Source: a virus. Taken from it: a DNA stretch of 22,184 bases. A program made the translations under genes and the position numbers. Positions 1 to 13,691 of this stretch are shown here, piece by piece. Each line of letters starts with the position of its first letter. The stretch's first letter is position 1. The stretch spans positions 1 to 22,184 of IMG/VR virus record IMGVR_UViG_3300025093_000140. One strand, given 5' to 3'. A model generated the notes under the pieces. It made no database searches. It was not told the DNA's origin and saw nothing but the letters and a program-made list of their open reading frames with translations.

Positions 1-104
1 AGTCCTCATTTGAAGCTATAAAAGATCGGGCAAATAGAGGAGACGAGCTTGATGATATGCGTCAACAGGCTCTTGAGGACTTTTTGCGGTATCATGGGAC
101 TTGA
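1..104 (+). CDS. C-terminal end of an unknown protein (partial, enters from left)
   Basis: An open frame (codons starting at base 3) runs from the window edge to a TGA at 102-104 and encodes about 33 residues ending in LEDFLRYHGT. The tail is rich in charged residues and probably helical. Its stop abuts the stop of the convergent minus-strand gene at 105, with no visible terminator between them. The beginning lies outside the window, so no function can be given. The compact junction and absence of stops support a real coding end. Confidence 0.6.
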   Translation, partial: SSFEAIKDRANRGDELDDMRQQALEDFLRYHGT

Positions 105-735: not shown

Positions 736-791
736 GATTTGGTTTCCTTTTTAACTAAATTTGTTCATTCATTACTGCTTTCTTGCTACTT

Positions 792-820
792 AGTCTAACA
801 TGGCTTAACAACTTTGTCAA
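792..820 (-). promoter_or_regulatory. Sigma70-like minus promoter E of the 735-105 cassette
   Basis: On the minus strand TTGACA (815-820), a 17 bp spacer and TAGACT (792-797) precede the 59-residue gene. The -35 lies in the same position relative to an AAGGTTG word (830-836) as in the four other minus cassettes, but the surrounding bases are the most diverged of the five. Confidence 0.6.
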
Positions 821-840
821 ACTCTTTTAAGGTTGACATA

Positions 841-869
841 TTGACATTTAGTTAGGGTCAAACTAAACT
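841..869 (+). promoter_or_regulatory. Sigma70-like plus promoter for the 896 gene
   Basis: TTGACA (841-846), 17 bp and TAAACT (864-869) lie 27 bases before the ATG at 896. A 7 bp inverted repeat TTTAGTT/AACTAAA (847-853 and 861-867) fills the spacer and reaches into the -10, so a repressor site here is possible. A second TTGACA lies 8 bases upstream at 833-838. Together with the minus promoter this makes a divergent control region of about 160 bases. Confidence 0.55.
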
Positions 870-895
870 GATAACAGGAAAGGACGGCGCGGTTT

Positions 896-1345
896 ATGTG
901 GTTAAAGTCAGTTGTTGGTTTAGGTGCTTATAAATTAGCGTTAATTGGATTATCTCAGTCTGATGTAATATCAGACGATGTACTACATATTTTTGAACAG
1001 TATCCGCCTCTTGTTGTGGTATTGGTAGTGGTCTATTATTTGCAGAAAGTCCAGAGAGAAGATATTCAAGAAAGAAGAAAACAGCATAAAGAGGATAATC
1101 AAGAGACACGTGCCTGGCTTGAAAAAATGCTTGAAATCCAAAGACAGTCTCTAAAAGGCATCTATGAGAGCCAACAGCAGTTTGTCTCAGTATTACTCGC
1201 TCAGATTGAGGGCAAGCAGAAAAACATGTCTGATCGAATTGAATTGCTTACGCAGCAAGTTGCATTGAATACCAGCACGGTGAATGAAGTGGCAAAGGTG
1301 GATTCCATCGTCAGTGAGTTAATTGCTAAACTGGAAAGCAAATGA
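896..1345 (+). CDS. Membrane-anchored coiled-coil protein, 149 residues
   Basis: The product has one hydrophobic segment at about residues 36-50 (PPLVVVLVVVYYLQ) followed by a long, highly charged helical region (about 50-149) with glutamine- and glutamate-rich heptad-like stretches. This fits a single-pass membrane protein with a coiled-coil tail. It could be holin- or spanin-like or a host-interaction factor, but no family is recognised. ATG 896 has a purine-rich AGGAAAGGA block about 12 bases upstream, longer than ideal. A strong terminator follows at 1393-1421, so it is probably its own transcription unit, driven by the promoter at 841-869. Confidence 0.7.
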   Translation: MWLKSVVGLGAYKLALIGLSQSDVISDDVLHIFEQYPPLVVVLVVVYYLQKVQREDIQERRKQHKEDNQETRAWLEKMLEIQRQSLKGIYESQQQFVSVLLAQIEGKQKNMSDRIELLTQQVALNTSTVNEVAKVDSIVSELIAKLESK

Positions 1346-1351
1346 TATAAT
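1323..1351 (+). promoter_or_regulatory. Possible promoter across the end of the 149-residue gene
   Basis: TTGCTA (1323-1328), 17 bp and a perfect TATAAT (1346-1351) sit just before a terminator at 1393-1421. If active, it would make an RNA of only about 60 bases. The -35 is a 4 of 6 match and the region is AT-rich, so chance is possible. Confidence 0.3.
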
Positions 1352-1392
1352 TTTTATGCATCGGATTTCTCCTTTTTTGTTCATCCTTTTTG

Positions 1393-1421
1393 AAAAGAGG
1401 CTTGATTAGCCTCTTTTTTTT
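1393..1421 (+). terminator. Rho-independent terminator after the 149-residue gene
   Basis: A 10 bp stem AAAAGAGGCT/AGCCTCTTTT (1393-1402 and 1408-1417) with a 5-base loop runs into a tract of eight T residues. It separates the 149-residue gene from the next transcription unit. Confidence 0.85.
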
Positions 1422-1457
1422 GGATGATTTCGTTCTCTTTTCTTTTCCTCTAAAATC

Positions 1458-1466
1458 TGCTATACT
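1458..1466 (+). promoter_or_regulatory. Extended -10 promoter of the 1474 gene
   Basis: TGC followed by TATACT (1461-1466) forms an extended -10 element with no good -35. Exactly 7 bases separate it from ATG 1474, so transcription would start at or next to the ATG. The core TCTGCTATA is identical to the one before the large terminase gene. Confidence 0.55.
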
Positions 1467-1473
1467 GTACATA

Positions 1474-1632
1474 ATGAAAAAGTTTAAGGGTATGGCGATA
1501 ATTGAGCGGTATGACCAAGACTGGAAGCGTCAGGAAACAATAGTTAAGCCAGATTTTGAGGATCGTTTTTCCTGGCCGCTGTTTGTAGTTATGATATTTC
1601 TTGGATTGGCGATAATTGGACAGATGATATAA
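1474..1632 (+). CDS. Small single-pass membrane protein, 52 residues
   Basis: The 52-residue product starts MKKFKGMAII, has a charged first half, and ends in a hydrophobic helix (about residues 34-52, WPLFVVMIFLGLAIIGQMI). A longer reading from 1390 would start inside the preceding terminator, so ATG 1474 is preferred. No Shine-Dalgarno site is visible, and the extended -10 is 7 bases away, which suggests a leaderless mRNA. Its stop overlaps the start of the small terminase gene (TAATG), so the two are probably co-translated. Function is unknown. Confidence 0.6.
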   Translation: MKKFKGMAIIERYDQDWKRQETIVKPDFEDRFSWPLFVVMIFLGLAIIGQMI

Positions 1633-2060
1633 TGGCGAGACCAACTAAACTTACACCAGAAATACAAGAGAAGATTTGTAAGGCTATTCGCTTAGGTGCG
1701 GTTTATCAACACGCATGCAATTATGCTGGTGTGAGTTATGGTTCTTTTCGCAATTGGATAGTCAAAGGCGAACAGGCTAAGAGTGGAAAATTTTTTGAGT
1801 TTTTGCACGCAATAAAAAAAGCCGAAGGTGCTGCCACTTCTCACTGGCTTGAAATGATTGAAGATGCTGCAGAAGATGGCAACTGGCAAGCTGCGGCCTG
1901 GAAACTTGAAAGGCGCTATCCGGCTGACTATGGCCGGCATACGAAACAACAAATTGAGCAACAGAATATCAATCTTGAAATAGATTGGAATGACTTGTCA
2001 GAAGATCAGCTTAAGCGTCTAGCCGATGGGGAAAATTTGGCCGATGTGCTTGGGGATTAA
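1632..2060 (+). CDS. terS: Terminase small subunit
   Basis: Small terminases recognise phage DNA and load the large subunit for packaging. The 142-residue product begins MARPTKLTPEIQEKI, with a helix-turn-helix region at about 16-45 (AIRLGAVYQHACNYAGVSYG). It continues with the family-typical region of a basic/aromatic helix, an AEGAATSHWLEMIEDAAEDG segment and WQAAAWKLERRYP at 85-97. The C-terminal acidic tail (about 115-142) may contact the large subunit. Its ATG overlaps the stop of the 52-residue membrane protein, and a bidirectional terminator follows at 2109. It is separated from the large terminase by a minus-strand cassette, which is unusual because the two genes are normally adjacent. 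Confidence 0.85.
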   Translation: MARPTKLTPEIQEKICKAIRLGAVYQHACNYAGVSYGSFRNWIVKGEQAKSGKFFEFLHAIKKAEGAATSHWLEMIEDAAEDGNWQAAAWKLERRYPADYGRHTKQQIEQQNINLEIDWNDLSEDQLKRLADGENLADVLGD

Positions 2061-2108
2061 GGGATAGGTAGTTTTGGGGGATGAATAAATTTAATACGCT
2101 TAGAAATG

Positions 2109-2136
2109 AAAAGAGCGCCTATTAAGGCGCTCTTTT
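2109..2136 (+). terminator. Bidirectional terminator between terS and the minus gene
   Basis: A perfect 11 bp stem AAAAGAGCGCC/GGCGCTCTTTT (2109-2119, 2126-2136) with a 6-base loop ends in T residues on both strands. It serves the convergent small terminase and the minus gene at 2167. A nearly identical copy lies at 5519-5546. Confidence 0.9.
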
Positions 2137-2166
2137 GTCTTTAGAATTAGTTGGCTTTTGAAAAAG

Positions 2167-2496
2167 TTATCGCCATTTTCCACAGAATTCAGGCGTGATA
2201 ACTGGTATAGCTTCTTCTCTTTTTGTTTCACTTTCAAAAAGTTCTTTCATTAAATCATCGTCCTCTATCTTTTGAGGTTTTGGTGAGTATTTTTGTATAA
2301 CCGTTAAATCACTTTGATAGAAATTTATTTTTCTGCCTGGTTTTGCCTGTTTGTTATCGGACTTTCTGGACAAGAAAATGATTTCAATCTCAACGCCGTT
2401 ATGTTTGTCATTATGAAATTTTGTGACAATTCCTTCACCTGTCATCTCCGATGTTTCAATTTTTACTTTGTCTCTCCATCCTACTTTGTTTTCCAT
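2167..2496 (-). CDS. Hypothetical protein with SH3/KOW-like start, 109 residues
   Basis: The product begins MENKVGWRDKVKI, and its first half alternates short hydrophobic strands with glycines (EGIVTKFHNDKHNGVEIEIIF), resembling a small beta-barrel of SH3, Tudor or KOW type. The second half is acidic and helical (QKIEDDDLMKELFESETKREE). A Shine-Dalgarno GGAAAAAG precedes the ATG at 2494-2496. It is the only gene of its cassette, driven by the promoter at 2540-2568 and ended by the terminator at 2109-2136. The fold suggestion is low confidence and the function is unknown. Confidence 0.65.
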   Translation of the reverse strand: MENKVGWRDKVKIETSEMTGEGIVTKFHNDKHNGVEIEIIFLSRKSDNKQAKPGRKINFYQSDLTVIQKYSPKPQKIEDDDLMKELFESETKREEAIPVITPEFCGKWR

Positions 2497-2501
2497 TTTC
2501 T

Positions 2502-2571
2502 TTTTCCTTTCATCTGCTAGTCAATCAATCTTGAATACAATCTTACCATATTCTAACAACCTTGTCAACCC
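2502..2571. repeat. 70 bp promoter repeat, copy 1
   Basis: These bases match 6069-6138 over 70 positions with two differences, both in the base pair CC versus GG at 2560-2561 and 6127-6128. The first 58 bases are identical. The block carries the leader with Shine-Dalgarno region, the -10, the spacer and the -35 of a minus-strand promoter. Shorter versions occur at 4800-4850 and 16420-16460. Confidence 0.9.
2540..2568 (-). promoter_or_regulatory. Sigma70-like minus promoter A with operator-like repeats
   Basis: On the minus strand TTGACA (2563-2568), 17 bp and TAAGAT (2540-2545) drive the 109-residue gene. CAACCTT (2558-2564) and AAGGTTG (2578-2584) form a 7 bp inverted repeat flanking the -35, a likely repressor site. 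Confidence 0.75.
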
Positions 2572-2591
2572 TTTTTTAAGGTTGGGTTTTC

Positions 2592-2600
2592 TGCTATAAT
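2592..2600 (+). promoter_or_regulatory. Extended -10 promoter of the large terminase gene
   Basis: TGC and a perfect TATAAT (2595-2600) lie 7 bases before ATG 2608, with no clear -35. The AAGGTTG word at 2578-2584 is just upstream. The arrangement matches that before the 1474 gene and predicts a start of transcription at or beside the ATG. Confidence 0.6.
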
Positions 2601-2607
2601 TTATTAC

Positions 2608-4062
2608 ATGAATAAGACACAGATACAAGCCAGAGCGCAATTAGAATTAAGACGGCGCGGCATACTCCCTGATTATATTTGGCCGAAGCGGTACAAATCA
2701 TCTAAAACTGGCAGAGAGTATATTCCGCAAAATGAGGCGGTAGCAGAGTTTATCAACAACGATAGACCGCGCTATATGCTGCTTAAAGGCGGCGAAGGAG
2801 GGGGGAAAAGTGCGGCTGGCGTGATGAAAAATCTTAATCGGCTCAGGCGCGGTTGTAATGGTATTATGGTCAGTACAGACCTGGAACACTTTAAGAAATC
2901 TATCTGGCCTACGTTTAAGGAATGGTGTCCTTGGAATTGTGTTATTGAGAGACATAGATATAGGCAAAGTGAAGGATGGGAACCAAGCCAAGCCTTTACA
3001 CTGGTATTTAAGAATGAAGTTGGCGGCTTTTCTGAACTGGTCTGTGGAGGTGCTAAAGAGGATAAGATAGGAAGTTGGGAGGGGCCAAATGTTAACTTTG
3101 TCCACTTTGATGAAGCGAGGGGGCATAAGACATCGGACGCGCTTAAAACGTTTGATGGACGTATTAGGATACTTGGGCCTAACAATGAGACGCCACAACT
3201 TTATTTGACTACTACGCCTCGTAAACATTGGCTTTTTGAGTACTTTGCCGGCGCGAAAGGCGATGAAGATAGCCTAAATCTTGTGCCTGATGAGATTAAA
3301 ATTAAGTACAGGGACTTTAAGCAGGACGCAGCGGTATATACTGTTTTAACCGCTGAAAATCCGGCTATAGATCAAGCATTTGTGAGGCAGAGAGCGCAGA
3401 CTTTGAGCGAGGCGGAGCAAAGGATTTTGCTTAAGGCGCTCTGGGAAGATGACACAGACATAGAAAAGTTTGTCAACATTATTTGGTGGGATAATTGTGC
3501 GGAAGGGACACAGGCGATTAGGAGAGATGAGCCGGCTATACTCGCTTTAGATGCTGCTACAGGTTCAGAAAATCCAGGCTACATGGCTGATTGCTTTGCA
3601 GCGGTTATGGTGACAAGACATCCTGATAGGTTGACTGATGTTATGGTGCGTTACTGTGGGATATGGGAGGCCGTTCCCGGTCAGCTATTGGACTTTGAGC
3701 CAATTAAAGAAGAAATCAAGCGGTTATGCAAGGAATTTTCCATCATAGAGGTGGCTTATGATCCGCACCAGTTGCACGATATGGCTACTAGCACAGAAAG
3801 CCGTCAGATGGCTAATTTCCAGGCTTTTAGTCAACAAAAAGACAGACTGCTGGCAGATAAACAATTGCAGGCTTTGATAATGAGCCGGCGCATTGCCCAT
3901 GATGGCAATCCACTACTGAGACAACATGTAGACAACGCAAACGTGAAAAAGTATGGCGAGGATGGGATAAGGTTGGTAAAGAAGAGTACAGCACAAAAAA
4001 TAGATGCCGCTGTTGCGTTAAGCATGGCGACATCTAGGTGTTTATATTTTAATTTGGGTTAG
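2608..4062 (+). CDS. terL: Terminase large subunit (packaging ATPase and nuclease)
   Basis: This motor pumps DNA into the prohead and cuts it. The 484-residue protein has a Walker A motif GGEGGGKS at 61-68, a Walker B NFVHFDEA at 163-170 (D168, E169) and the coupling motif LTTTPR at 200-205. The C-terminal RNase H-like nuclease shows three separated acids: D315 in ILALDAATG, D385 in VAYDPHQL and D466 in KIDAAVALSMA. Length and order fit complete, active large terminases. There is no Shine-Dalgarno site before ATG 2608, and the -10 is 7 bases away, so the mRNA may be leaderless. A minus cassette separates it from terS, and it converges with the minus genes at 4074 without a visible terminator. 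Confidence 0.95.
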   Translation: MNKTQIQARAQLELRRRGILPDYIWPKRYKSSKTGREYIPQNEAVAEFINNDRPRYMLLKGGEGGGKSAAGVMKNLNRLRRGCNGIMVSTDLEHFKKSIWPTFKEWCPWNCVIERHRYRQSEGWEPSQAFTLVFKNEVGGFSELVCGGAKEDKIGSWEGPNVNFVHFDEARGHKTSDALKTFDGRIRILGPNNETPQLYLTTTPRKHWLFEYFAGAKGDEDSLNLVPDEIKIKYRDFKQDAAVYTVLTAENPAIDQAFVRQRAQTLSEAEQRILLKALWEDDTDIEKFVNIIWWDNCAEGTQAIRRDEPAILALDAATGSENPGYMADCFAAVMVTRHPDRLTDVMVRYCGIWEAVPGQLLDFEPIKEEIKRLCKEFSIIEVAYDPHQLHDMATSTESRQMANFQAFSQQKDRLLADKQLQALIMSRRIAHDGNPLLRQHVDNANVKKYGEDGIRLVKKSTAQKIDAAVALSMATSRCLYFNLG

Positions 4063-4073
4063 ATATTTTATTG

Positions 4074-4268
4074 CTATCCTATTTTCTCGGAATATGCAAT
4101 CGCTTGTTTCAGCAATCTTTGAATTAATTTACTATTACCTTCGCCCGGCTTGCGTTCTATCTCAACTAATTCCCACAATTTAGGCGGAAGGGTGATGCTT
4201 AATTTTTTGTGCTTTTTTTCTCCCTTACTGGCCTTGGTCTTTGGTCCTGGTTTGCCGTTGTTGCTCAC
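4074..4268 (-). CDS. Ribbon-helix-helix-like DNA-binding protein, 64 residues
   Basis: The product has a basic N-terminus (PGPKTKASKGEKKHKK), a short strand LSITLPPKLW and two helices (LWELVEIERK and NSKLIQRLLKQAIAYSEK). This matches the CopG/Arc ribbon-helix-helix layout, in which the strand pairs in a dimer and reads DNA. The start is GTG (4266-4268), overlapping the stop of the upstream gene by 3 bases. As the only clear small DNA-binding protein in a minus cassette, it is a candidate regulator of the repeated AAGGTTG promoters. That link is inference only. Confidence 0.7.
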   Translation of the reverse strand: MSNNGKPGPKTKASKGEKKHKKLSITLPPKLWELVEIERKPGEGNSKLIQRLLKQAIAYSEKIG

Positions 4269-4486
4269 TTTTCACTCCTTTCATATCTTGATACGTTGCC
4301 ATCTACATAATGTCCCATTGGACTGCCTTCATAATTCCAGCGGATTTCTACGCACTGAAACATTCGCTTAATCCAGGCAATGGATTTGTCAATATCATTG
4401 TTTTCAACTTCTAAGACTACAGGGAGATCTTCCCATTTGGTGAGTTGGCCTTTTTCTTTGAATTTAAGTTCTGCTGTGTTAAACAT
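4265..4486 (-). CDS. Hypothetical protein, 73 residues
   Basis: The product begins MFNTAELKFKEKG and contains strand-like stretches (LPVVLEVENNDI, CVEIRWNYEG) around a helix (DKSIAWIKRMFQ), suggesting a small alpha/beta fold. AAGGAAAA lies upstream of ATG 4484-4486. It is the middle gene of the cassette and is coupled to the ribbon-helix-helix gene through a GTGA overlap. No family is recognised. Confidence 0.65.
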   Translation of the reverse strand: MFNTAELKFKEKGQLTKWEDLPVVLEVENNDIDKSIAWIKRMFQCVEIRWNYEGSPMGHYVDGNVSRYERSEK

Positions 4487-4530
4487 GATTTTCCTTTTGA
4501 GCCTTTTAATGTCTTGCTCAGGACTGGGGG

Positions 4531-4764
4531 TTAATTTAACTTGATTTTGATTTCTTCGTATTCGGCTCCGTTGATGCCGAGTTGGTCAAAGTAATGTCGA
4601 AAATTGGCCCAAACTGTATCAAAATCGTCTATGTCTTGTTGGGTGCACCCCTCTTTGTTAACATAGTCTATCTTTAAGGCTTCGGCTTCCCAGTAAACCG
4701 CTTTCTCGAAAGTAGTTTTAACTTCTTGGTTTGTTTGAATTAGATTTAATATTCGGTTTAGCAT
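4531..4764 (-). CDS. Hypothetical acidic helical protein, 77 residues
   Basis: The first gene of the cassette encodes MLNRILNLIQTNQEV and continues as a helical, acidic protein (TQQDIDDFDTVWANFRHYFDQL). A longer frame opens at 4815, but that codon overlaps the -10 of the promoter, so ATG 4762-4764 with the Shine-Dalgarno GAAAGGAAAAG is the sensible start. No family is recognised. Confidence 0.65.
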   Translation of the reverse strand: MLNRILNLIQTNQEVKTTFEKAVYWEAEALKIDYVNKEGCTQQDIDDFDTVWANFRHYFDQLGINGAEYEEIKIKLN

Positions 4765-4814
4765 TTTTTCTTTTCCTTTCTGTTTATCGTTAGCAATTGC
4801 TAATCTTGAATACA

Positions 4815-4843
4815 ATCTTACCAGATTATAACAAGGTTGCCAA
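4815..4843 (-). promoter_or_regulatory. Sigma70-like minus promoter B with palindromic operator
   Basis: On the minus strand TTGGCA (4838-4843), 17 bp and TAAGAT (4815-4820) serve the three genes at 4764-4074. The -35 lies within the palindrome GGTTGcCAACC (4835-4845), and a second AAGGTTG follows at 4853-4859 in the same orientation as the first. Confidence 0.75.
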
Positions 4844-4866
4844 CCCTTTTTTAAGGTTGAGTTTTT

Positions 4867-4894
4867 TTGATCTTAAAAACACATTTGTTATAAT
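4867..4894 (+). promoter_or_regulatory. Plus promoter of the RmlC-like gene
   Basis: TTGATC (4867-4872), 16 bp and a perfect TATAAT (4889-4894) preceded by TGT (extended -10) lie 20 bases before ATG 4915. Unlike the terL promoter it leaves a leader with a Shine-Dalgarno region (AGAGGCGAGAG). Confidence 0.65.
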
Positions 4895-4914
4895 ATAAAA
4901 AGAGGCGAGAGTAT

Positions 4915-5367
4915 ATGATTAATGGATTAGAAATAAAGAAGTTGACCAGGTTCACAGATACACGCGGGTATTTTCAAGAAAATATTCGTGTGACAGATGA
5001 TTTTTTTGGCGGCTTTGGTCAATGGTCACAGTCGCTTATGTGGCAAGGTGTGATTAAAGCCTGGCATATTCATCATATCCAGACTGACTATTGGCTTGTT
5101 CCTATTGGCGTTATACGTGCTGTTTTTTGTGATATGCGCGGGAATTCTGCAACATACAAGCAAATAGATGAGTGTATGATGGGGGATGGTTATGAGCCAA
5201 TTGTTATTAAAATCCCACCTGGCGTGGCTCATGGATGCAAAGTGTTGCAAGGGCCGGCCATATTAACATATATCACATCACACATTTACGATCCTGACGA
5301 TGAGGGGCGAATACCCTATGATGATCTGAAGATTGAATACGACTGGCACAAAGAGGTGATCAAGTGA
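4915..5367 (+). CDS. RmlC-like sugar nucleotide epimerase (cupin), 150 residues
   Basis: RmlC-family cupins epimerise dTDP-4-keto-6-deoxyhexoses on the way to rhamnose and related sugars. The 150-residue product keeps family landmarks: FTDTRGYFQEN (13-23), QWSQSLMWQGVIKAWHIHHI (36-55, carrying the histidine cluster H51/H53/H54), IPPGVAHG (100-107) and YDPDDEGRIPYDD (125-137). It is shorter than typical RmlC (about 180), and usual GLHYQ becomes AWHIH, so it may be a non-canonical 3- or 3,5-epimerase or a sugar-binding relative. It has its own promoter and is coupled by a GTGA overlap to a 51-residue gene. The glycosyltransferases and the RmlD-like start at 22060 suggest a shared glycan function. 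Confidence 0.8.
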   Translation: MINGLEIKKLTRFTDTRGYFQENIRVTDDFFGGFGQWSQSLMWQGVIKAWHIHHIQTDYWLVPIGVIRAVFCDMRGNSATYKQIDECMMGDGYEPIVIKIPPGVAHGCKVLQGPAILTYITSHIYDPDDEGRIPYDDLKIEYDWHKEVIK

Positions 5368-5519
5368 CTGAGACTAAAAAACCTTACAACCTTGAAAAAT
5401 CACCATTTTATGGGTTGATTAAAAAGCATCCTTGGATTGTGCCAGTATCAGAGTTGATTGTGCGTTGTATTGGCGCATATCGGGAATTTCACGAAGTTCA
5501 TATTAAGCCGCATAAATGA
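5364..5519 (+). CDS. Hypothetical protein, 51 residues
   Basis: A short gene with GTG start (5364-5366), overlapping the stop of the RmlC-like gene, ends at TGA 5517-5519. AGAGGTGAT precedes it. The product is basic (TETKKPYNLEKSPFYGLIKK, later YREFHEVHIKPHK) with a central hydrophobic stretch HPWIVPVSELIVRCIGAY that could be a weak helix. It runs straight into a terminator. No family is recognised. Confidence 0.6.
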   Translation: MTETKKPYNLEKSPFYGLIKKHPWIVPVSELIVRCIGAYREFHEVHIKPHK

Positions 5520-5546
5520 AAAGAGCGCCGATTAAGGCGCTCTTTT
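5519..5546 (+). terminator. Bidirectional terminator, second copy
   Basis: The 11 bp stem AAAAGAGCGCC/GGCGCTCTTTT (5519-5529, 5536-5546) is the same as that at 2109-2136, with one loop base changed. The shared block continues a few bases to the left (AAATG). It sits between the convergent 51-residue gene and the minus gene at 5560. Confidence 0.9.
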
Positions 5547-5559
5547 GGTTTTTCGTAAC

Positions 5560-5802
5560 TTATGTTTTTTTGAAGCGAGGATTGTAAATTAATTCTCCGC
5601 TAGAATTAGCTACAAAAGCAACAGGGGGGTAGCCGGTCAACATTGGATTGTCTTCTCCTGTGTGTCCTAGACTACGACAAACCTTTTTCGCTTCTTTTAA
5701 GTTGTTGTAAGTGCTGTGAGTTTGGATATTATTGTATTCCTCATCGGATTTGGGGAAATTGCCTTTTTCAAATTGATCATTCCAGTACATTACTCTAAAC
5801 AT
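5560..5802 (-). CDS. Hypothetical protein, 80 residues
   Basis: The product MFRVMYWNDQFEKGNF shows an early strand, a helix (NLKEAKKVCRSLG) and a later pair of strands (VAFVANSSGELIYNPRF), consistent with a small alpha/beta domain. AAAGGAT lies before ATG 5800-5802. It is the second gene of its cassette, ending at the terminator at 5519-5546. No family is recognised. Confidence 0.65.
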   Translation of the reverse strand: MFRVMYWNDQFEKGNFPKSDEEYNNIQTHSTYNNLKEAKKVCRSLGHTGEDNPMLTGYPPVAFVANSSGELIYNPRFKKT

Positions 5803-5836
5803 TTTTATCCTTTCATTATTTTTTTGATAGTATTAA

Positions 5837-6064
5837 TTAATTGCTGATTTGGTCAATTCTGGTGTTAAGCTCTTTTACAAGTCGGTTGCTTATTGTGTCT
5901 ACAGCAACCTGCGCTGAATGTATGTGATTACAACTTGCACGCGCTAGAATATCATTTGTTGATGGTGTTTGCATGCCTGACTTTACTTCATTTTTAATTT
6001 CTGCTTGTAGATTTTCCAGAGCTTTCCGAGCTTCGTTTATAGCTATTGCTAGTTTGGTGTTCAT
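5837..6064 (-). CDS. Hypothetical helical protein, 75 residues
   Basis: The product is almost all helix (MNTKLAIAINEARKALENLQ, then AQVAVDTISNRLVKELNTRI), with a short linker around GMQTPSTND, suggesting a two-helix bundle that could dimerise. GGAAAAGGAA precedes ATG 6062-6064. It is the first gene downstream of minus promoter C. No family is recognised. Confidence 0.65.
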   Translation of the reverse strand: MNTKLAIAINEARKALENLQAEIKNEVKSGMQTPSTNDILARASCNHIHSAQVAVDTISNRLVKELNTRIDQISN

Positions 6065-6068
6065 TTCC

Positions 6069-6138
6069 TTTTCCTTTCATCTGCTAGTCAATCAATCTTG
6101 AATACAATCTTACCATATTCTAACAAGGTTGTCAACCC
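6069..6138. repeat. 70 bp promoter repeat, copy 2
   Basis: This is the partner of 2502-2571, with 68 of 70 bases identical. The two changed bases turn AACCTT into AAGGTT, which restores the palindrome GGTTGtCAACC missing in copy 1. The near identity across leader, -10 and -35 suggests recent duplication or conversion. Confidence 0.9.
6107..6135 (-). promoter_or_regulatory. Sigma70-like minus promoter C with palindromic operator
   Basis: On the minus strand TTGACA (6130-6135), 17 bp and TAAGAT (6107-6112) drive the genes at 6064 and 5802. The palindrome GGTTGtCAACC (6127-6137) covers the -35. The second AAGGTTG word found at the other sites is absent here. Confidence 0.75.
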
Positions 6139-6179
6139 CAATTTCATAACTTTAAGATTAAATCAAATCATCGTATAAA

Positions 6180-6209
6180 TTGACACAGTATAGTCCAATC
6201 GTGTATACT
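6180..6209 (+). promoter_or_regulatory. Promoter of the head (portal to capsid) operon
   Basis: TTGACA (6180-6185), 18 bp and TATACT (6204-6209) predict transcription from about 6216. It is the only strong plus promoter seen before the nine-kilobase head operon. A 20-codon frame, ATG 6215 to TGA 6277, starts 5 bases after the -10 and covers the left arm and loop of the next hairpin. It could be a leader peptide, although it has no Shine-Dalgarno site. Confidence 0.65.
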
Positions 6210-6230
6210 AACAAATGAGACAATGCTCGA

Positions 6231-6291
6231 AAGTCCATTGTTCATTTCGCCCTATTTCTTATTCGGCGGCTAAATGACAATGGACTTTTTT
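6231..6291 (+). terminator. Terminator-like leader hairpin before the portal gene
   Basis: AAGTCCATTG (6231-6240) pairs perfectly with CAATGGACTT (6278-6287). The stem extends by TCATTT/AAATGA with one bulged T, and an inner CGCC/GGCG may pair in the loop. Six T residues (6286-6291) follow and the portal ATG is at 6293. No gene ends just upstream on this strand, so the hairpin can only act on RNA from the promoter at 6180. It resembles an attenuator or antitermination target. Confidence 0.7.
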
Positions 6292-6292
6292 A

Positions 6293-7855
6293 ATGTCTGA
6301 GAACATCGCAATTATCCGCAACGGAAAAATAGAATATGCAACGGCAAAGCAGGTTAATGGCAGCCTAACGGATTTGTCCATTCAAAGACGCGCATTGCCG
6401 GCTGATGACCAGAACAGTATTGCAAATTTTTGGCCCAGTTCATTCTCTTTTGGCTACCATAATGATAGTTTAGTGCCTCCCTGGTGGAGCGAAAAAAGAG
6501 ATCACGCATTAAGAGCGTTTGTATATCGTCCGAACAATGACATTTTAATTGGCGCTGTTTCTTCAATGATTAAAAAGTTCAAGAGCATGAACTGGGTTAT
6601 TGAAGGACCTTTAAGAGTGGTTAATAGGTATCAAAAGGTCCTCACAACTGCTGAATTTTGGCAAGGGTGGAGCTTTTGGCTTGGCAAGATACTATTTGAC
6701 TATTATACACAGGATAAGGGCGCATTTAGCGAAATTATAGGCGCTGGTAATCCTAATGGACCTATCGTTGGGCCTGTTATTGGACTGGCCCATCTTGATG
6801 CACAACATTGCCAACTTACCGGCGATGTGGAATATCCAGTTATTTTTAATAACCCAAAAGATGATAGGTCACATAAGTTGCACACAACCCGCGTTGCTCA
6901 TTTTGTTGATATGCCATCGCCGGCGGAGAATATGAATAATACTGGTTTCTGTGGCGTTAGTCGGGTGATTGGCTCATCTGAAATCCTCCTCAAAATCAAC
7001 AAATATAAGAATGAAAAGTTAGATGACTTGCCGGAAGCCGGATTATTGCTTTTTAACAATGTGCTACCTGAAAAATGGAATGACGCGAAAGCACATTATG
7101 CAAGAGAGACTAGACGGCTAGGCCAAGATCATTGGCGTAACATTATGACAATGTTTGGTCTTGACCCGGCGCAACCTGCTACGGCTGATTTAATCTCATT
7201 TGCTAATCTTCCAGAAGCCTTTAATGAGCTTGAGAGTACTAACACTTACGCCACCATCCTCGCCTTATCTTTTGGCGTTGATGTGCGAGAGTTTTGGCCT
7301 ATGTCTAATGGTCAGTTAGGGACTGCCACAGAAAGCCTGGTGATGCACCAAAAAGCGCGCGGCAAAGGTGTAGGTGAAGTCATCGGCATGATTGAACGCG
7401 TGCTTAACTGGAAAGTCTTACCAGACAGTGCCACATTCTCTTTTGATTTTACCGATGACGAGGAAGATTTATTATCTGCTGAAATAGATGAAAAGCGCAC
7501 AAACACTATTATGTCTATGTGGACCGGTGATGAATTTGGGCCGGTTAACGCTTTTGAGATACGTCAAATGTTGGCTGATAACGTGAGCTATTTCAAAGAT
7601 GACTTCTTAGAGTTGGATGCGACAGACGAGGAAAATGCTACAGATAATGAGATAGCCAAGATGTTTGGTGGCTTAGTTGAGATTAATCAGAAGGGTGATA
7701 TTAAGCGATTGGGGCGACGCAAACGAATTAAACCAATAATAGACGACGCTGTGAGTTTGGCGGCTGAAAATTACCGAAAAGGTGCGATAACGGCAGAAAC
7801 AGTAGCCGAATTTGCACTAGGAGAGTTGATAGATGCAAAATCCATATCCGACTAA
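6293..7855 (+). CDS. Portal protein
   Basis: The portal forms the ring through which DNA enters the head. The 520-residue product has portal-like features: HALRAFVYRPNNDILIGAVSSMI (71-93), the HFVDMPSPAENMNNTGFCGVSRVI segment (203-226), and FANLPEAFNELESTNTYA (303-320) leading to LALSFGVDVREFWP (323-336) and TATESLVMHQKARGKG (344-359). The last block is typical of phage portals near their stem and crown. Its size and its position after the terminase and before a Mu-F-like protein fit. There is no Shine-Dalgarno site; the six T residues of the leader hairpin end 1 base before the ATG, so expression may depend on that structure. Its end overlaps the next gene by 23 bases. Confidence 0.85.
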   Translation: MSENIAIIRNGKIEYATAKQVNGSLTDLSIQRRALPADDQNSIANFWPSSFSFGYHNDSLVPPWWSEKRDHALRAFVYRPNNDILIGAVSSMIKKFKSMNWVIEGPLRVVNRYQKVLTTAEFWQGWSFWLGKILFDYYTQDKGAFSEIIGAGNPNGPIVGPVIGLAHLDAQHCQLTGDVEYPVIFNNPKDDRSHKLHTTRVAHFVDMPSPAENMNNTGFCGVSRVIGSSEILLKINKYKNEKLDDLPEAGLLLFNNVLPEKWNDAKAHYARETRRLGQDHWRNIMTMFGLDPAQPATADLISFANLPEAFNELESTNTYATILALSFGVDVREFWPMSNGQLGTATESLVMHQKARGKGVGEVIGMIERVLNWKVLPDSATFSFDFTDDEEDLLSAEIDEKRTNTIMSMWTGDEFGPVNAFEIRQMLADNVSYFKDDFLELDATDEENATDNEIAKMFGGLVEINQKGDIKRLGRRKRIKPIIDDAVSLAAENYRKGAITAETVAEFALGELIDAKSISD

Positions 7856-8570
7856 AATTTTAGATGTAAGGCCAGATAACCATAGTTCGCTCGGCACAAT
7901 CCCTCGCTTTATGGAAGGTGACTATGACCGTCTTCAACATCACTGGAAATTTGAAATCTTATTTGATCAAGGTCACAACCGCGCTAACTCAGGTGAGTTG
8001 TTTTGGGCTATAGATGCGATAGAAGTTAAGGCGGGGCCGGCGACATTGCAGCCGCAGGTCAGGGATATTGACAATAATCTCATAACTGCTCATCCCGGTA
8101 TCCTTATGTTTAATCACTGGCCCAGTGCGCCATTAATTGAGTTTAACGCAGATCCAAAATACTTTGACCGTGCTGTTGTGGGATTTACTGAGGGCAACGG
8201 TTCAATTGGTTGGGGATTTGGTGGGGAAAGCTGGATAAATGCGGCTGAACCAAGCAGTCATAGCGGGGGGCCATATTCTGTTTGGGCATCTGCCCATCCT
8301 GAAAATTTTCAACCTCCGCAAGATAGGGTTGTAGGCTCAGATTGCTTGCATAAAATCGGATGGTGGGATGATCATATTGTTCTTAATCCGATTTTTAGGA
8401 TTATGCGGAAAGCTGGTGCGCCACCACCAGATGGTGACAGTGAGCTTAGAGTATTTGATAAGGACGGCTCATTTGTGGGCAAGGTAGCGCTAATAAGCGG
8501 TGGTGGCTCAGGCGGTAGAATTGGGCTATTTAGCGGAGAAACAGAACAGGCGTATGTTGAGTTTGAATGA
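7833..8570 (+). CDS. Conserved-looking phage protein of unknown function, 245 residues
   Basis: Lying between portal and minor head genes, this is probably virion-associated or an assembly factor. ATG 7833 has GGAGAG upstream and overlaps the portal end. The sequence is rich in aromatic residues, glycine and proline, with IGWGFGGESWI near the middle, GGPYSVWAS, and HKIGWWDDHIVLNPIFRIMRK before a glycine-rich tail (ISGGGSGGRIGLFSG). The pattern of many W, H and G motifs suggests a beta-rich fold, perhaps carbohydrate binding. I do not recognise a named family. No signal peptide or membrane segment is visible. Confidence 0.7.
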   Translation: MQNPYPTKILDVRPDNHSSLGTIPRFMEGDYDRLQHHWKFEILFDQGHNRANSGELFWAIDAIEVKAGPATLQPQVRDIDNNLITAHPGILMFNHWPSAPLIEFNADPKYFDRAVVGFTEGNGSIGWGFGGESWINAAEPSSHSGGPYSVWASAHPENFQPPQDRVVGSDCLHKIGWWDDHIVLNPIFRIMRKAGAPPPDGDSELRVFDKDGSFVGKVALISGGGSGGRIGLFSGETEQAYVEFE

Positions 8571-9186
8571 GGTTAAAGCGCCAGCAATAAACACCATATC
8601 CGGCACAGGTGGCATAGTAGCGTTTAGGCGCAATCTTCGCTCCGCTATACGCGGGTTATGGTCTGGTGCGTTAACTAAGCGTCAAGCGTTATTAACTTTT
8701 AGAAGTGCGATTGAAAGAGCGATTGAAAGAGCATGGGTTGAGGGTGCAGCGGAGTGTGGTATACAGTCTGATGAATTAACAACAGAAGAGTTAACGAAAC
8801 GTGACGAGTTTATCTTTAATCAAAATGATTTAGCTCCTAATTTTATTGATCATATAGCCGCTCAAAGCAAAGAGAATGGGGGGAAACTCACTCCTCTGTT
8901 GCAACGGGCTGAGATGTGGATTAATCAATATGATAGCGCAAAGCAACAAGCAACTACATTAGCTTGTGGAAATCTTAAGCTCGAATGGCGCATAGGGAGA
9001 ACCGAGCATTGCAGAACTTGTCTCGCTCTTAATGGTCAAGTAAGACGTGCGTCGTTTTGGCAAAATAATGTAGTGCCTCGCAATGCACCTAATCCGAAAT
9101 TAGAGTGTAGGGGATTTAGGTGTCAGTGCATGTTGATAAAAACTGACAAGCCAATTTCAAGGGGCAGAGCGCCACGGTTAAACTAA
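8554..9186 (+). CDS. Mu gpF-like minor head / head morphogenesis protein
   Basis: Proteins of this type (Mu gpF, SPP1 gp7) bind the portal and help assemble the head. The 210-residue product has helical N-terminal and middle regions with arginine-rich repeats (RSAIERAIERAWVEG) and the family's C-terminal cysteine block. That block comprises C153/C156 in HCRTC, followed by LALNGQV, then C185, C190 and C192 in ECRGFRCQC. A longer frame opens at 8500, but ATG 8554 overlaps its neighbour by only 17 bases and has GGAGAA upstream, so it is preferred. Its stop overlaps the start of the next gene (TAATG). Confidence 0.8.
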   Translation: MLSLNEVKAPAINTISGTGGIVAFRRNLRSAIRGLWSGALTKRQALLTFRSAIERAIERAWVEGAAECGIQSDELTTEELTKRDEFIFNQNDLAPNFIDHIAAQSKENGGKLTPLLQRAEMWINQYDSAKQQATTLACGNLKLEWRIGRTEHCRTCLALNGQVRRASFWQNNVVPRNAPNPKLECRGFRCQCMLIKTDKPISRGRAPRLN

Positions 9187-9365
9187 TGGCTAAAAAAGAG
9201 AGTTTGTACACAGTTTATAGACCGGTACGTATTTCAGACAAAAAAATAGCTGTACCAGGCGACATTGTGAAATGCACTGAAGTTGAAGCGATGTGCATAA
9301 ACACCATGCAACCTATGACATTGAGATTAATAAATGATAAAAAGAGGTTGGCACAATGGACTTAA
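9186..9365 (+). CDS. Small basic protein, 59 residues
   Basis: ATG 9186 overlaps the stop of the minor head gene, and the frame ends at TAA 9363-9365. The product MAKKESLYTVYRPVRI has a PVRISDKKIAVPGDIVKC stretch resembling a small beta-rich head protein, then helical TLRLINDKKRLAQW. It overlaps the start of the next gene by 10 bases. Similar small proteins are common between minor head and capsid genes of phages. Function is unknown. Confidence 0.6.
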   Translation: MAKKESLYTVYRPVRISDKKIAVPGDIVKCTEVEAMCINTMQPMTLRLINDKKRLAQWT

Positions 9366-9532
9366 TAAAAAGCAAAAAATTTCAGATGGCTTTGGCCGGC
9401 GTAATTGTGGTTATTATTACCAGTTTTATTCCTGAAATTGACGAGACGGAACTAACCAAAATCGTCGGTCTTATCATTGCTTACATTGTTGGTCAAGGTT
9501 TGGCTGATTTTGGTAAAGAGGCTAAAAAATGA
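9356..9532 (+). CDS. Small two-segment membrane protein, holin-like, 58 residues
   Basis: ATG 9356 follows AAGAGGTTGG and the frame ends at TGA 9530-9532. The 58-residue product has two hydrophobic stretches (about 11-26, MALAGVIVVIITSFIP, and 36-47, IVGLIIAYIVGQ) joined by an acidic hairpin (EIDETEL) and ends in a charged tail (DFGKEAKK). This is the layout of small class II-like holins or other phage membrane proteins. Its position within the head operon, not beside a lysis enzyme, makes a holin role uncertain. It overlaps the next gene by 4 bases. Confidence 0.65.
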   Translation: MDLIKSKKFQMALAGVIVVIITSFIPEIDETELTKIVGLIIAYIVGQGLADFGKEAKK

Positions 9533-10044
9533 TAGGCAGAACGGACAAAGAAAGTGGAGCAAGCATAGTTATTTCGCTTGGTCATGCTCATTCGCATGAT
9601 GGCCGAATGTTTGAAATTAGCTATAAGACGCCAGATGGTAGTCCGCTGGCAGATAATGCTAATCTTGATTTTTTGTTTAGACCAAACGGCGCTCATGTGC
9701 ATTTTTCTTTTGGGCCTGTTGCTGCCAATCCAATTGAGGTTTTGTTTTACGAGGCGCCTACTATCTCTAATGTTGGCACATCGCTTAGTGTTGTTGGCCT
9801 TAATAGAATAAGGTCTCTTGCGCCGTCATCAGTGGTATATCATACGCCAACTGTTTCAGCGGTTGGCAACCAGCTTCAAAGCGTTTTGCAAGTCTGGGGA
9901 ATTACATCCTTGACACCTGCATTTTCTGAGACCCCTTGGATTTTGGCACTCAATACGGATTATCTTGTCCGCATCACTAACAGAGCGGGTAGCGCGCAGG
10001 ATGTAGGATTGGTTATGCAATGGTTTGAGGAGGCAACGGTTTAA
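9529..10044 (+). CDS. Putative virion structural protein, 171 residues
   Basis: The product is beta-rich with many short polar loops and a repeated pattern of NRIRSLAPSSVVYHTPTVS and WILALNTDYLVRITN. The latter resembles proteins often found in environmental phage head or tail modules, usually unannotated. No cysteine or catalytic motif is apparent. ATG 9529 is in an ATGA overlap with the small membrane protein, and its stop overlaps the next ATG. A decoration or minor structural role is inferred from position and fold impression only. Confidence 0.65.
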   Translation: MIGRTDKESGASIVISLGHAHSHDGRMFEISYKTPDGSPLADNANLDFLFRPNGAHVHFSFGPVAANPIEVLFYEAPTISNVGTSLSVVGLNRIRSLAPSSVVYHTPTVSAVGNQLQSVLQVWGITSLTPAFSETPWILALNTDYLVRITNRAGSAQDVGLVMQWFEEATV

Positions 10045-10379
10045 TGGTGGCTCAAACATCGCCAGAACGAGAGGATGCACGGGCAACATATCCGGCTGAA
10101 CTATATACGGTAGGCAATCATACTGTGCTTGATATTAGTCCAAATGGTGATTTTATCGAAAAACCCGCGCCGGGACCGGGCAACTTGCAGGCTACACACA
10201 TACAAATACAGGCGTTCAATCAAAACGTGCGATATAAAATTGATGGAAATGAAGCAAGTGCGACTGAGGGGTTTCAGTTGGCAGCCGGCGCAATATCTTT
10301 AGTTCCAGTTCCCAATCGTGGTATTAGCGTATTTGAGGAAATAGCCGGCGCAACTGTTCAATACCAGTTTGTGAGGTGA
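10044..10379 (+). CDS. Small putative virion protein, 111 residues
   Basis: The product has a charged N-terminus (SPEREDARATYPAELY), then a beta-strand-rich half with NQNVRYKIDGNEASATEGFQ, ISLVPVPN and ATVQYQFVR. Small all-beta proteins of this pattern are found among phage head and tail accessory proteins. ATG 10044 overlaps the stop of the previous gene, and the next gene starts 1 base after its end. It is probably made together with the neighbouring 171- and 432-residue proteins. The specific role is unknown. Confidence 0.6.
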   Translation: MVAQTSPEREDARATYPAELYTVGNHTVLDISPNGDFIEKPAPGPGNLQATHIQIQAFNQNVRYKIDGNEASATEGFQLAAGAISLVPVPNRGISVFEEIAGATVQYQFVR

Positions 10380-10380
10380 T

Positions 10381-11679
10381 ATGTCTACTTGGCAGCATAC
10401 AGGATTAGCAGGGAGCGGTTCGGGTGGCGTTGCTATCAAGTTTGCCGATGGTGGTGGTATAGATGCGTTTGCAAGACAAAGAACATCTGAGCCATTTACA
10501 CTGTTCGATTCTAAGCAAATATGGGATGATGGCGACATAGCTAATAATGCTGAAAATTATCCGCTCTTCTATGATAATCAAGAAACGAGTGGGTCAGGCA
10601 CAAGCACAACGTTCAACGTTAACAGAGCCAGCACTATACTTAGCGTGTCTACCACTACCGCAGGCACAAGGGTTAGACAAACCAAACAACGATTTAACTA
10701 TCAGCCTGGCAAGTCTCAACTGGTAATTATTACTGGTATTATTGGCGCTGTTACTTCTGGCAACACGAAGCGCTTTGGTTATTTTGATGAAAATGACGGC
10801 TTATTTTTCGAGAGTAGCGGTAGCAATATAAATGTAGTTGTTAGGTCTAATGTATCTGGCAGTCCAGTTAATACCAAGGTTGCCCAATCAGATTGGAATC
10901 TTGACACTATGGACGGTAATGGGCCAAGTGGCGTTAATCTTGATTTCTCTAAAGTTCAAATATTTTTTTGTGACTTTGAATGGTTGGGCGTTGGACGGGT
11001 GCGATTTGGATTTTACATAGATGGCTTACCGGTTTATTGTCATCATGTCCTAAACGCCAATGTTATCGGATCGGTTTATATGTCTAACCCTAATTTGCCA
11101 GTCAGGGTTGAGATAGACAATGATGGCACTGGGGCAAGTGATAGCATAGAGCATATTTGCAGTACGGTTGTTAGTGAGGGAGGCGTACAGCCTAATGGCA
11201 TCACTCGCTTTGCTGATATAGGAGACACAACAGCAGAAGATATTAGTACTCCGACGGCAGGTGTGACATATGCTATTTGTGGTATCAGGTTGAAGTCTGC
11301 TTATTTGTCGGCTGATGTAAAAGAGCTTTTTGTGTCTTTAATTGAAAATTCAGGTGCTAATAATCCTTTTGTGTGGCGATTGCATTTTAACCCGACAATT
11401 GCTGCGGCGTTGACTTATTCAGATGTGACTAATAGCGCTATTCAATTTGGGATAGCAAGCACGGCTACACCAGCTAACAACGTGATTGATCCTGCTGGCA
11501 CAATAGTGGCTGGTGGTTATCAGGCGCGTACTGACGCCAATGCCAGTATCCCATTAGAAAGCGCATTAAGACTTGGCAGCTTGATAGATGGTACTGTTGA
11601 TCAATTAGTTTTATCTGCTGCCCCAATCACGGCTAACAATTTGTTTTTTGGCGGTATACAATGGCGAGAGGCTTGGTAA
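10381..11679 (+). CDS. Conserved phage structural-type protein, 432 residues
   Basis: The product starts with a glycine-rich stretch and then reads like a widely distributed uncharacterised phage protein. Landmarks are SEPFTLFDSKQIW (36-48), PLFYDNQETSGSG, RQTKQRFNYQPGKSQL, VQIFFCDFEWLGVGRVRFG and PNLPVRVEIDNDGTGASDS. The composition is beta-rich with many T, S and G, as in surface or decoration proteins. I remember similar sequences in environmental phages without a firm function. It follows the 111-residue gene by 1 base and its end overlaps the possible upstream start of the protease ORF. A virion location is inferred. Confidence 0.7.
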   Translation: MSTWQHTGLAGSGSGGVAIKFADGGGIDAFARQRTSEPFTLFDSKQIWDDGDIANNAENYPLFYDNQETSGSGTSTTFNVNRASTILSVSTTTAGTRVRQTKQRFNYQPGKSQLVIITGIIGAVTSGNTKRFGYFDENDGLFFESSGSNINVVVRSNVSGSPVNTKVAQSDWNLDTMDGNGPSGVNLDFSKVQIFFCDFEWLGVGRVRFGFYIDGLPVYCHHVLNANVIGSVYMSNPNLPVRVEIDNDGTGASDSIEHICSTVVSEGGVQPNGITRFADIGDTTAEDISTPTAGVTYAICGIRLKSAYLSADVKELFVSLIENSGANNPFVWRLHFNPTIAAALTYSDVTNSAIQFGIASTATPANNVIDPAGTIVAGGYQARTDANASIPLESALRLGSLIDGTVDQLVLSAAPITANNLFFGGIQWREAW

Positions 11680-11681
11680 TT

Positions 11682-13691
11682 ATGGATATAAAATTCGATG
11701 AAGTGTTAGAGCTTGAAGCGCCTCATGGTTTTTTGGTAGCACAGGGCAAAGAGACGGCTATTGCCAGAATTGAGCCATTGGACGCGGACAAATCTTATCT
11801 GATTGTTTGCAACGGCGAGGCTTTTGGTGTGGCTAATTTTAGTCAACCTGCGCAAATCAAAATTAAAGATTTTGATGACAATGAATGGCAGAAACAGCAT
11901 AGAGTAACAGCCAGAGAGCGTCGGCAATGGTGGCCAGACAGTGAATTGTTTTATGTTTATCGCATCAAAGATTGGAAACCGTTCGAAGGCGTAAAACTCT
12001 TTGAGGATGGGCAAGTTGTTGATGAGCCTAAATTAACAACAGAGCAATGGCAGATAGTTAGTAAGGCTAAGGAATTGCCTAAGCAGATTATCTTATTAAA
12101 AGATGCTGTTTCTGTCACTGACAAGTCAGAATTTGTTATTAATTTGTCAGATGAATGTAGGGAGCTTGACAGTATTTTATCAGCCACTTATGAGATTGAT
12201 GTTAAAGAGGCAAAGGAAGTTAACGAAATTATACCTCTTTATTCTCTCGTCTTAGTTCGCAATCCACGCATGCGCGTGTCAAAAAAAAGCCCAGAGGCGG
12301 CAAAAAAAGAGATAACAGAGGCAGAAATAAAACAAGAGGGTGAAAATATGCCATACAGTATAGTTCGCAGAGAAGGCGAATTTTGTGTGATTAAAGATGA
12401 AGATAAAGAGGTGATGGGTTGTCACGAAAATGAGGAAGATGCGGAGGCCCAACTTGCAGCTTTAAGGATTAATGTTGAGGCTGAAGAAAGTGAAGCTGAG
12501 GCTGGAATGGACAAGCCGAAAAAGCGCAAGCCGAGAAAGAAAGAGCTAATTGAAGCTGACTTTAGCGGCAATGATGTTTCATATGAAACAGTTGAGATGT
12601 TTGCTGAGGAAGCAAAAAAAGACAATTTCATGACACGCCTCAAATTAGCGGCTAAAAACATCTTAAATATCATCACGGTAGCCGAAATTGAAGAGAAAGA
12701 GGCTGGATTAGATATTTTGAATAGCAATTATGGTGTAACGCAGAAAAAAGTTAATGGTGATCTGTGGCATTTCACATGGTCTACTAATGCTTTCGAAGAT
12801 CGAGAAAAAGAGATATTTTCAACCAGTTCACTCAAGCAATATGTTGAACAAGCTAACAAGAGAGAAGATCGAGGCTTTTTTAATTTTTGGCATATGCAAG
12901 GGACTGATTTTGCCAAGAAAGAATGGCAAATGGTGATAGGTAGATTTTTAGTTGAAGCTGGCCCTTATATTGATGACACAAGAGGACAAGCGGCTAAAGA
13001 ATTTTTCAAACAATATTCAGATGGGCATCCTGAATTTGCGCCTGAAGGATGGGGATGTTCTCCTGAATTTAAGTACCTTCCAGAGGAGAGGGCAACTGGA
13101 GTTTATGAAAATATTTGGATAACTAGAACTAGCACGTTGCCAAAAATGGCAGCGGCTAACATCTGGACTGAAACAAGTCAATTAATGAGGTCTAAAAATA
13201 TGGCTATTACTGATTATAGTAAAGAGCAGATTGAAGCAGCCGTTGAAGTGTTTAAGGATGAAGATTTTGTGAAATCAATTATCCAGCAAGGTGAGACCAA
13301 AACGGCTGAATTGGAAGCGGCTAATGTAGCTCATAAAGGCGAAAGTGAAAAATCCGAAACTGAGCCGCAGTCAGAACCGCAAAAAATTAATATGGAAGAA
13401 TTAGCGGCTGAAGTTGGCAAGCAATTTGGCGCTAATCTTGATCCGATAGCAGAGGCTATTGCTACTATGGCCAGTGGCATTAAAGAGTTGGATGAACGAC
13501 TTAATAAGCTAGAGAAAGAGCAAGGCATTAAAGATAAGACTGAATCGCCGCGTTATGTTTTTGAATGGAAGAGAGCGAGTGAAGCGAACGAAACTATGGT
13601 CACAGAGGATGACGATTTGAAAGACAAAAAACCTGCTGAAACCAAGATAAAAAGTAATGATCCTTGGGAGCAGATGGGCTTTGGTAAATAA
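11682..13691 (+). CDS. Prohead protease with N-terminal extra domain and C-terminal scaffold
   Basis: Numbering from the longer possible start at 11661, this protein has 676 residues and at least three parts. Residues 1-210 form a separate domain with HRVTARERRQWWP, which looks PUA/ASCH-like but is not firmly assigned. Residues 230-273 (MPYSIVRREGEFCVI and a CHENEEDAEAQLAAL motif) resemble the start of many phage prohead proteases. Residues 350-505 look like an XkdF-type serine protease, with FTWSTNAFEDREKEIF, H411, GCSPEF (S467) and a TSTLPKMAAANIWT finish. Residues 514-676 are acidic and coiled-coil-rich (IKELDERLNKLEKE), as in scaffolds. ATG 11682 avoids overlap with the previous gene. Catalytic assignments are tentative. 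Confidence 0.75.
   Translation: MDIKFDEVLELEAPHGFLVAQGKETAIARIEPLDADKSYLIVCNGEAFGVANFSQPAQIKIKDFDDNEWQKQHRVTARERRQWWPDSELFYVYRIKDWKPFEGVKLFEDGQVVDEPKLTTEQWQIVSKAKELPKQIILLKDAVSVTDKSEFVINLSDECRELDSILSATYEIDVKEAKEVNEIIPLYSLVLVRNPRMRVSKKSPEAAKKEITEAEIKQEGENMPYSIVRREGEFCVIKDEDKEVMGCHENEEDAEAQLAALRINVEAEESEAEAGMDKPKKRKPRKKELIEADFSGNDVSYETVEMFAEEAKKDNFMTRLKLAAKNILNIITVAEIEEKEAGLDILNSNYGVTQKKVNGDLWHFTWSTNAFEDREKEIFSTSSLKQYVEQANKREDRGFFNFWHMQGTDFAKKEWQMVIGRFLVEAGPYIDDTRGQAAKEFFKQYSDGHPEFAPEGWGCSPEFKYLPEERATGVYENIWITRTSTLPKMAAANIWTETSQLMRSKNMAITDYSKEQIEAAVEVFKDEDFVKSIIQQGETKTAELEAANVAHKGESEKSETEPQSEPQKINMEELAAEVGKQFGANLDPIAEAIATMASGIKELDERLNKLEKEQGIKDKTESPRYVFEWKRASEANETMVTEDDDLKDKKPAETKIKSNDPWEQMGFGK

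Follow-up and report, generated by a model that had tools for sequence, protein, structure and literature searches.

The control of late genes by tailed phages is commonly ascribed to Q-like antiterminators, sigma factors or activators. In the lambda Q system, the late promoter pR' is followed by a short leader and the terminator tR' ahead of the structural genes. The put element of phage HK022 acts processively and free of any protein, through the zinc-binding domain of the RNA polymerase beta' subunit. In the sugar operons controlled by BglG, SacY and LicT, a protein-bound RNA hairpin (RAT) that overlaps the terminator gives readthrough. The HK022 putRNA is about 70 nt long, binds the RNA polymerase zinc-binding domain and acts on terminators up to 10 kb away (PMC9378689). 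The targets of the ANTAR proteins EutV, NasR and AmiR are dual-hairpin antiterminators with conserved hexanucleotide terminal loops carrying A1 and G4 (PMC3369931), and canT of Tn916 is a cis-acting antiterminator of mobile elements (PMC11658703).

Here we describe the leader of a probable head operon in an uncultured tailed phage, using as the window (the whole stretch of DNA analysed) the 22,184-base IMG/VR record IMGVR_UViG_3300025093_000140. ANTAR dual-hairpin antitermination is the closest system in design, and the leader would work like an ANTAR target but is not one. Both have two small consecutive hairpins that precede or overlap an intrinsic terminator, an antiterminator opposed to that terminator in a 5' leader, and a regulon of several operons. 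In contrast to ANTAR targets, it is a 2x2 pyrimidine internal loop that is conserved here, with terminal loops of differing length and sequence; hexanucleotide loops with A1 and G4 were not found among 18 hairpins, and no ANTAR domain scored above the cut-off in ten partial phage records. The RAT systems share the hairpin over a terminator, but here the hairpins are in tandem and the genes are phage structural genes, and a CAT_RBD protein was not found in nine partial records. As in put, two stem-loops lie just downstream of a phage promoter, whereas one of the hairpins here has a strand in common with the neighbouring terminator; canT also differs, being processive and not overlapping. The order of promoter, leader and terminator is that of lambda, although the control element here appears to be RNA. 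As judged against the open-access PMC literature, the leader would be a variant of leader-RNA attenuation/antitermination outside the families tested.

Gene content of the window

The features that frame the locus are the following.

1632: TerS gene
2608: TerL gene
4915: dTDP-sugar epimerase-like gene
5519–5546: separate terminator closing the upstream plus-strand operon, with a near-copy at 2104
6293–7855, plus strand: probable portal gene, which leads the head operon
13714: probable capsid gene, up to which the head operon runs

Small minus-strand ORFs lie between the epimerase-like gene and the probable portal gene, while glycosyltransferase-like genes stand with the probable capsid gene at the far end of the listed gene order. 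The capsid and portal labels are probable, their main basis being synteny (portal after TerL). The original prediction spoke of the portal without reserve; a relative (L024) matched the portal family phrog_11117 with E 0.0017, and three of seven portal-family members matched phrog_146 (best E 0.06, window E 0.14). An AlphaFold model of the probable portal was too poor to support its identity. The GenBank phages searched contained no relatives of the window portal or capsid, and among the GTDB genomes searched, portal homologues were limited to one distant MAG contig without a usable leader.

The window also carries four copies of a repeat of about 75 nt (2497–2571, 4772–4846, 6064–6138 and 16389–16463) upstream of minus-strand small ORFs. 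They contain a minus-strand promoter, TTGACA-17-TAAGAT in three copies, and are probably a shared early promoter/leader. An extended −10 element, TGCTATAAT, lies at 2595–2610 with the TerL ATG 8 nt after it, and TGCTATACT at 1463–1477 is similarly placed before an ORF; both sites look like leaderless messages. A perfect 20-bp inverted repeat (GTCCAGATAATTACTATA.../...TATAGTAATTATCTGGAC, 16511–16558) precedes a glycosyltransferase-like gene and its promoter.

A strong promoter and a predicted intrinsic terminator precede the probable portal start codon

The leader of the probable portal gene contains the following elements.

6180–6209, plus strand: sigma70-type promoter TTGACA-18-TATACT (−35 at 6180–6185, −10 at 6204–6209)
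6219–6242, plus strand: hairpin A (putative antiterminator), GACAAUG-CU-C-GAAA-G-UC-CAUUGUU, its 3' strand being terminator left arm
6230–6247, plus strand: left arm of the intrinsic terminator, overlapping hairpin A
6247–6269, plus strand: hairpin B, UCGCC-CU-AU-UUCUU-AU-UC-GGCGG, within the apical part of the terminator
6272–6288, plus strand: right arm of the terminator, holding GGA at 6282–6284
6286–6291, plus strand: U-tract of six T, followed by A6292 and the ATG at 6293

The promoter had been predicted at these positions and is borne out; it matches the consensus at 11 of 12 positions and is the top plus-strand match in 1–12000. The RNA from 6205 to 6310 folds at −31.1 kcal/mol, compared with a shuffled mean of −16.3 (z −5.0), and none of 200 shuffles was as good. 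The original prediction of a plain 16 bp stem holds for the hairpin itself, which spans 6230–6288, while the stem is of about 18 pairs with one bulged T; its T tract, said to end 1 base before the ATG, does so exactly. That the portal has no Shine-Dalgarno (SD) site was nearly right, as the GGA in the right arm, 8 nt ahead of the ATG, resembles a weak SD, and a weak GGA or GAG lies in the right arm of several leaders, 7–10 nt before the AUG. SD-looping across the hairpin, reportedly in the style of T4 gene 25, was rejected, there being no upstream SD in the leaders examined. The proposal that no upstream gene needs the terminator fits the window, where the separate terminator closes the upstream operon, but fails in two relatives (L001 and L020/G005), in which a small upstream gene abuts the promoter with no terminator between.

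Terminator-like hairpins recur at the portal start codons of divergent relatives

Relatives of the portal were gathered by tblastn-confirmed scans; among them are L001 (77% identical), L020/G005 (74%) and L021/G007 (55%). Since the proteins of relatives align from Met 6293, this start codon is probably right. A terminator-like hairpin whose U-tract ends 0–2 nt before the portal start was observed in these three and in L024/G008, L025/G009, L027/G010 (with a GTG start), L028/G011 and L032/G013. Because this placement recurs with hairpin sequences that are unrelated between subgroups, the arrangement is selected, and its retention in divergent relatives supports the predicted gating of the head operon by promoter, hairpin and T tract. 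Variants also occur: in L029/G012 a U-rich stretch extends to the portal ATG, in L065/G014 the hairpin lies about 33 nt upstream of the start and an SD is present, the L005 leader has promoter and hairpin without a T tract, and no terminator was found directly at the portal of L031 or L022/G003. Across 14 contigs and ORFs of at least 100 aa, 23 start codons lie 0–3 nt after a terminator U-tract, compared with 4.75 expected from neighbouring distances.

Several single loci in the relatives are recorded here in their own right. The probable portal ORF of L002 (contig 3300032731_000303) is interrupted in frame by about 1.1 kb (~4891–6005); the insert ends ...VVHN/TQD at the conserved TQDKG motif within an open frame of 864 aa and, from these features, is probably an intein. 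In G013 an in-frame TGA and a change of frame disrupt the probable portal ORF (4556–6032). A hairpin at G005 12296 has its U-tract directly against the start ATG of a GIY-YIG-like gene; because the promoter −10 sits inside this hairpin, its transcripts would lack the left arm.

Predicted tandem hairpins with pyrimidine internal loops overlap the terminator

Folding the leaders up to, but without, the terminator right arm revealed a recurring shape, missed by the original prediction: stem, two pyrimidines, stem, loop, stem, two pyrimidines, stem. It occurs twice in tandem, with one copy over the left arm of the terminator. In the window both hairpins have a 2x2 all-pyrimidine CU/UC internal loop, and in nascent folds both are present until the right arm emerges. 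Hairpin A of L001 is GAUAGUG-CC-C-GCGA-G-UC-CAUUAUC, and its hairpin B has UU on one side of the internal loop. The G005 portal leader has GAUUAUG-UC-C-GCAA-G-UC-CAUUAUC, with one U-U mismatch, followed by GCC-CC-GC-UCU-GC-UC-GGC. In G007, G010 (portal and tail gene), G013 and G003, as in three tail-side leaders of G005, the second hairpin is the one over the left arm, the first standing upstream of it; the G008 leader has one hairpin only.

Among the 18 hairpins listed, the internal loops are CC/UC (9), UC/UC (4), UC/CC (2), CC/CC (2) and CU/UC (1), while the stems use many different base pairs and the terminal loops, of 3–7 nt, are dissimilar (GAAA, GCAA, UAAU, UUAC, UCAUAU and others). A promoter matching 11–12 of 12 consensus positions lies 3–12 nt before the first hairpin in seven of 12 leaders, which places the dual hairpin at the 5' end of the transcript; no clear adjacent promoter was found for the G010 tail, G013, G003 and G008 leaders. 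Rfam 15 covariance models gave no match at gathering score in the window, and chance-level scores only for the relatives and the window together.

A descriptor of two consecutive pyrimidine-loop hairpins with an overlapping terminator matched nine times in 562 kb of family contigs, every time within a leader or immediately before a head or tail-side gene, and the unit precedes such genes in G003, G005 (three tail-side), G007, G010 (two) and G013. Unrelated IMG/VR control contigs (719 kb) and 20,000 shuffled versions of the window leader yielded no match. After dinucleotide shuffling, the family contigs gave seven matches over eight shuffles (0–3 each, mean 0.9) with a top score of 19, while six of the real matches score 22–27, the window being highest (27). 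A YC/YC hairpin lies over the left arm in 6 of 29 start-abutting terminators vs 6 of 595 others (Fisher p 4.5e-6); a pool of eight control internal loops showed no bias toward start-abutting terminators (p 0.72). As the motif was first recognised by eye in these same leaders, the terminator overlap and most of the descriptor enrichment are post hoc, and the shuffles, control loops and control contigs serve as guards. Two leaders were found by scan after the motif had been defined (G003 12489–12557 and G005 44140), and a third (G005 40625) through orthology to the G010 tail-side gene. Single YC/YC hairpins are not enriched genome-wide (117, vs 93–193 for control loops), so that the enrichment is limited to their coupling to terminators and their tandem arrangement. 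A scan of IMG/VR with a G005-like sequence pattern was too loose and found nothing real.

One base of the left arm (column 33) covaries with both of its partners, in the upstream strand and in the right arm: the hairpin A pair is C-G in the window vs U-A in L001 and the G005 portal leader, and the terminator pair G-C vs A-U. This amounts to one fully compensatory pair per helix among three homologues and is not significant against shuffles. A free-energy test of the upstream pairing across leaders gave a weak signal (combined p 0.015).

A second subgroup carries a different putative antiterminator hairpin

In G009, G011 and L107, and with variations in G014 and G012, another hairpin has its end in the terminator left arm, either at the portal or at a tail-side gene. 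It reads CACC/GGUG or GCC/GGC, then UUUUC, stem, loop, stem and YAGC. In its six distinct copies 38 of 38 cells are paired with seven double-sided changes, a covariation score reached by none of 500 shuffles. Each genome uses one antiterminator type at its different operons, and the two subgroups use different types; this is what one would predict if every phage supplied its own reader.

Upstream of the tail-side antiterminator of G011 (L113), at ~48480–48580, lies a structured-looking RNA of about 80 nt (CTAGGT..ACCTAG, GCTGTAC..GTACAGC), for which no Rfam match was found.

Discussion

We read the region, with a probability of about 0.6, as a transcription attenuator of the head operon in which the dual hairpin would be stabilised by a factor, and as part of a regulon of head and tail genes. 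In the leader the antiterminator and intrinsic terminator pairings are mutually exclusive, as in the attenuator class. In the scheme that we infer, including termination itself, which way the switch acts, and whether a factor exists and of what kind, RNA polymerase would start at ~6216 from the strong promoter and the first ~50 nt of transcript would fold into hairpins A and B, each with its tandem pyrimidine-pyrimidine mismatch. In the default state, completion of the right arm would let the terminator (about −23 to −28 kcal/mol) retake the left arm from hairpin A (about −6), and transcription would stop at the U-tract directly ahead of the start codon, leaving an RNA of ~75 nt. A trans-acting factor, most likely an early-made phage protein, would bind both internal loops and hold hairpin A; no terminator would then form, polymerase would read through, and the AUG would be exposed by the single-stranded right arm and U-tract. 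With such tight spacing, a single fold may settle transcription and AUG access together, and the same switch on tail-side operons would make a late structural-gene regulon. That the factor is a phage-encoded RNA-binding antiterminator which reads the tandem 2x2 pyrimidine loops and acts on head and tail genes together, the hairpin of the sister subgroup having co-evolved with its own, is a tentative proposal to which we give slightly less than even odds; the family proteins, of which mostly structural and glycosyltransferase genes are common, offered no obvious candidate for a shared trans factor.

The alternative that fares best, though it is unlikely, is a put-like cis-acting RNA, whose 5' hairpins would bind RNA polymerase and make it terminator-resistant free of any protein. 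A strong promoter is indeed followed at once by two stem-loops within ~55 nt, as PL is closely followed by putL (PMC9378689), and known antiterminators were not found in the contigs. However, every leader has one hairpin over the terminator left arm, an overlap that processive action would not require; the operon would be constitutively on; and the stem sequences vary freely. Less probable again is that the terminator is an ordinary, leaky intergenic one, which closes off transcription from upstream and adjusts the portal level, the overlapping hairpins being incidental. The absence of any other terminator between the upstream small gene and the portal in L001 and G005 would suit it, and terminator-like hairpins are common in these genomes, yet a strong promoter stands between the upstream gene and the terminator, the YC/YC overlap is concentrated at start-abutting terminators, and the dual unit recurs at tail genes.

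Control of the lambda type, proposed in the original prediction, is disfavoured and ranks slightly lower still. It would load a Q-type processive antiterminator at promoter DNA and make the hairpin a tR'-like terminator, which agrees with the strong promoter, short leader and terminator, and with the spacer motif AGTATAG common to the window, L001 and G005 portal promoters. It leaves the dual hairpins unexplained, and the head and tail promoters of G005 have no common spacer motif. In that genome the head leader and three tail-side leaders agree in RNA architecture, with stems that are unrelated and promoter spacers that differ; this is the strongest argument for a factor that reads RNA rather than promoter DNA. 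Besides, Q proteins (Antiterm and Phage_antitermQ; PF03589/PF06530) were not found in nine records, which are partial, Q proteins being diverse; NusG-family proteins were not found in the family contigs. Least probable of all is a device of translation or processing (a ribosome standby or RNase site, giving a portal message that lacks an SD or a leader and may be coupled to a leader peptide), which would fit a start codon 0–2 nt after the U-tract with little SD and the leaderless-looking arrangement at TerL (TATAAT 2595–2600, ATG 2608), but G003, G014 and G005 40643 keep the hairpin/U-tract unit with the start codon 10–33 nt away, that of G003 with a good SD, and the predicted 20-codon frame at 6215–6277 is present but, like the leader-ORF coupling, not conserved.

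Under the attenuator reading, an RNA dual-hairpin antiterminator appears to govern the structural operons throughout an uncultured phage group. To our knowledge, as far as the open-access PMC literature goes, no known antiterminator matches in using tandem pyrimidine mismatches as its recognition element. Because the stems vary while the internal loop stays, the unit provides a searchable motif, a late regulon for each genome and a target for the reader protein. Its position before head and tail genes points to an on/off switch for virus-particle production that is undescribed in the same literature. If true, this would be a new class of phage late-gene regulator, one that reads tandem 2x2 pyrimidine internal loops.
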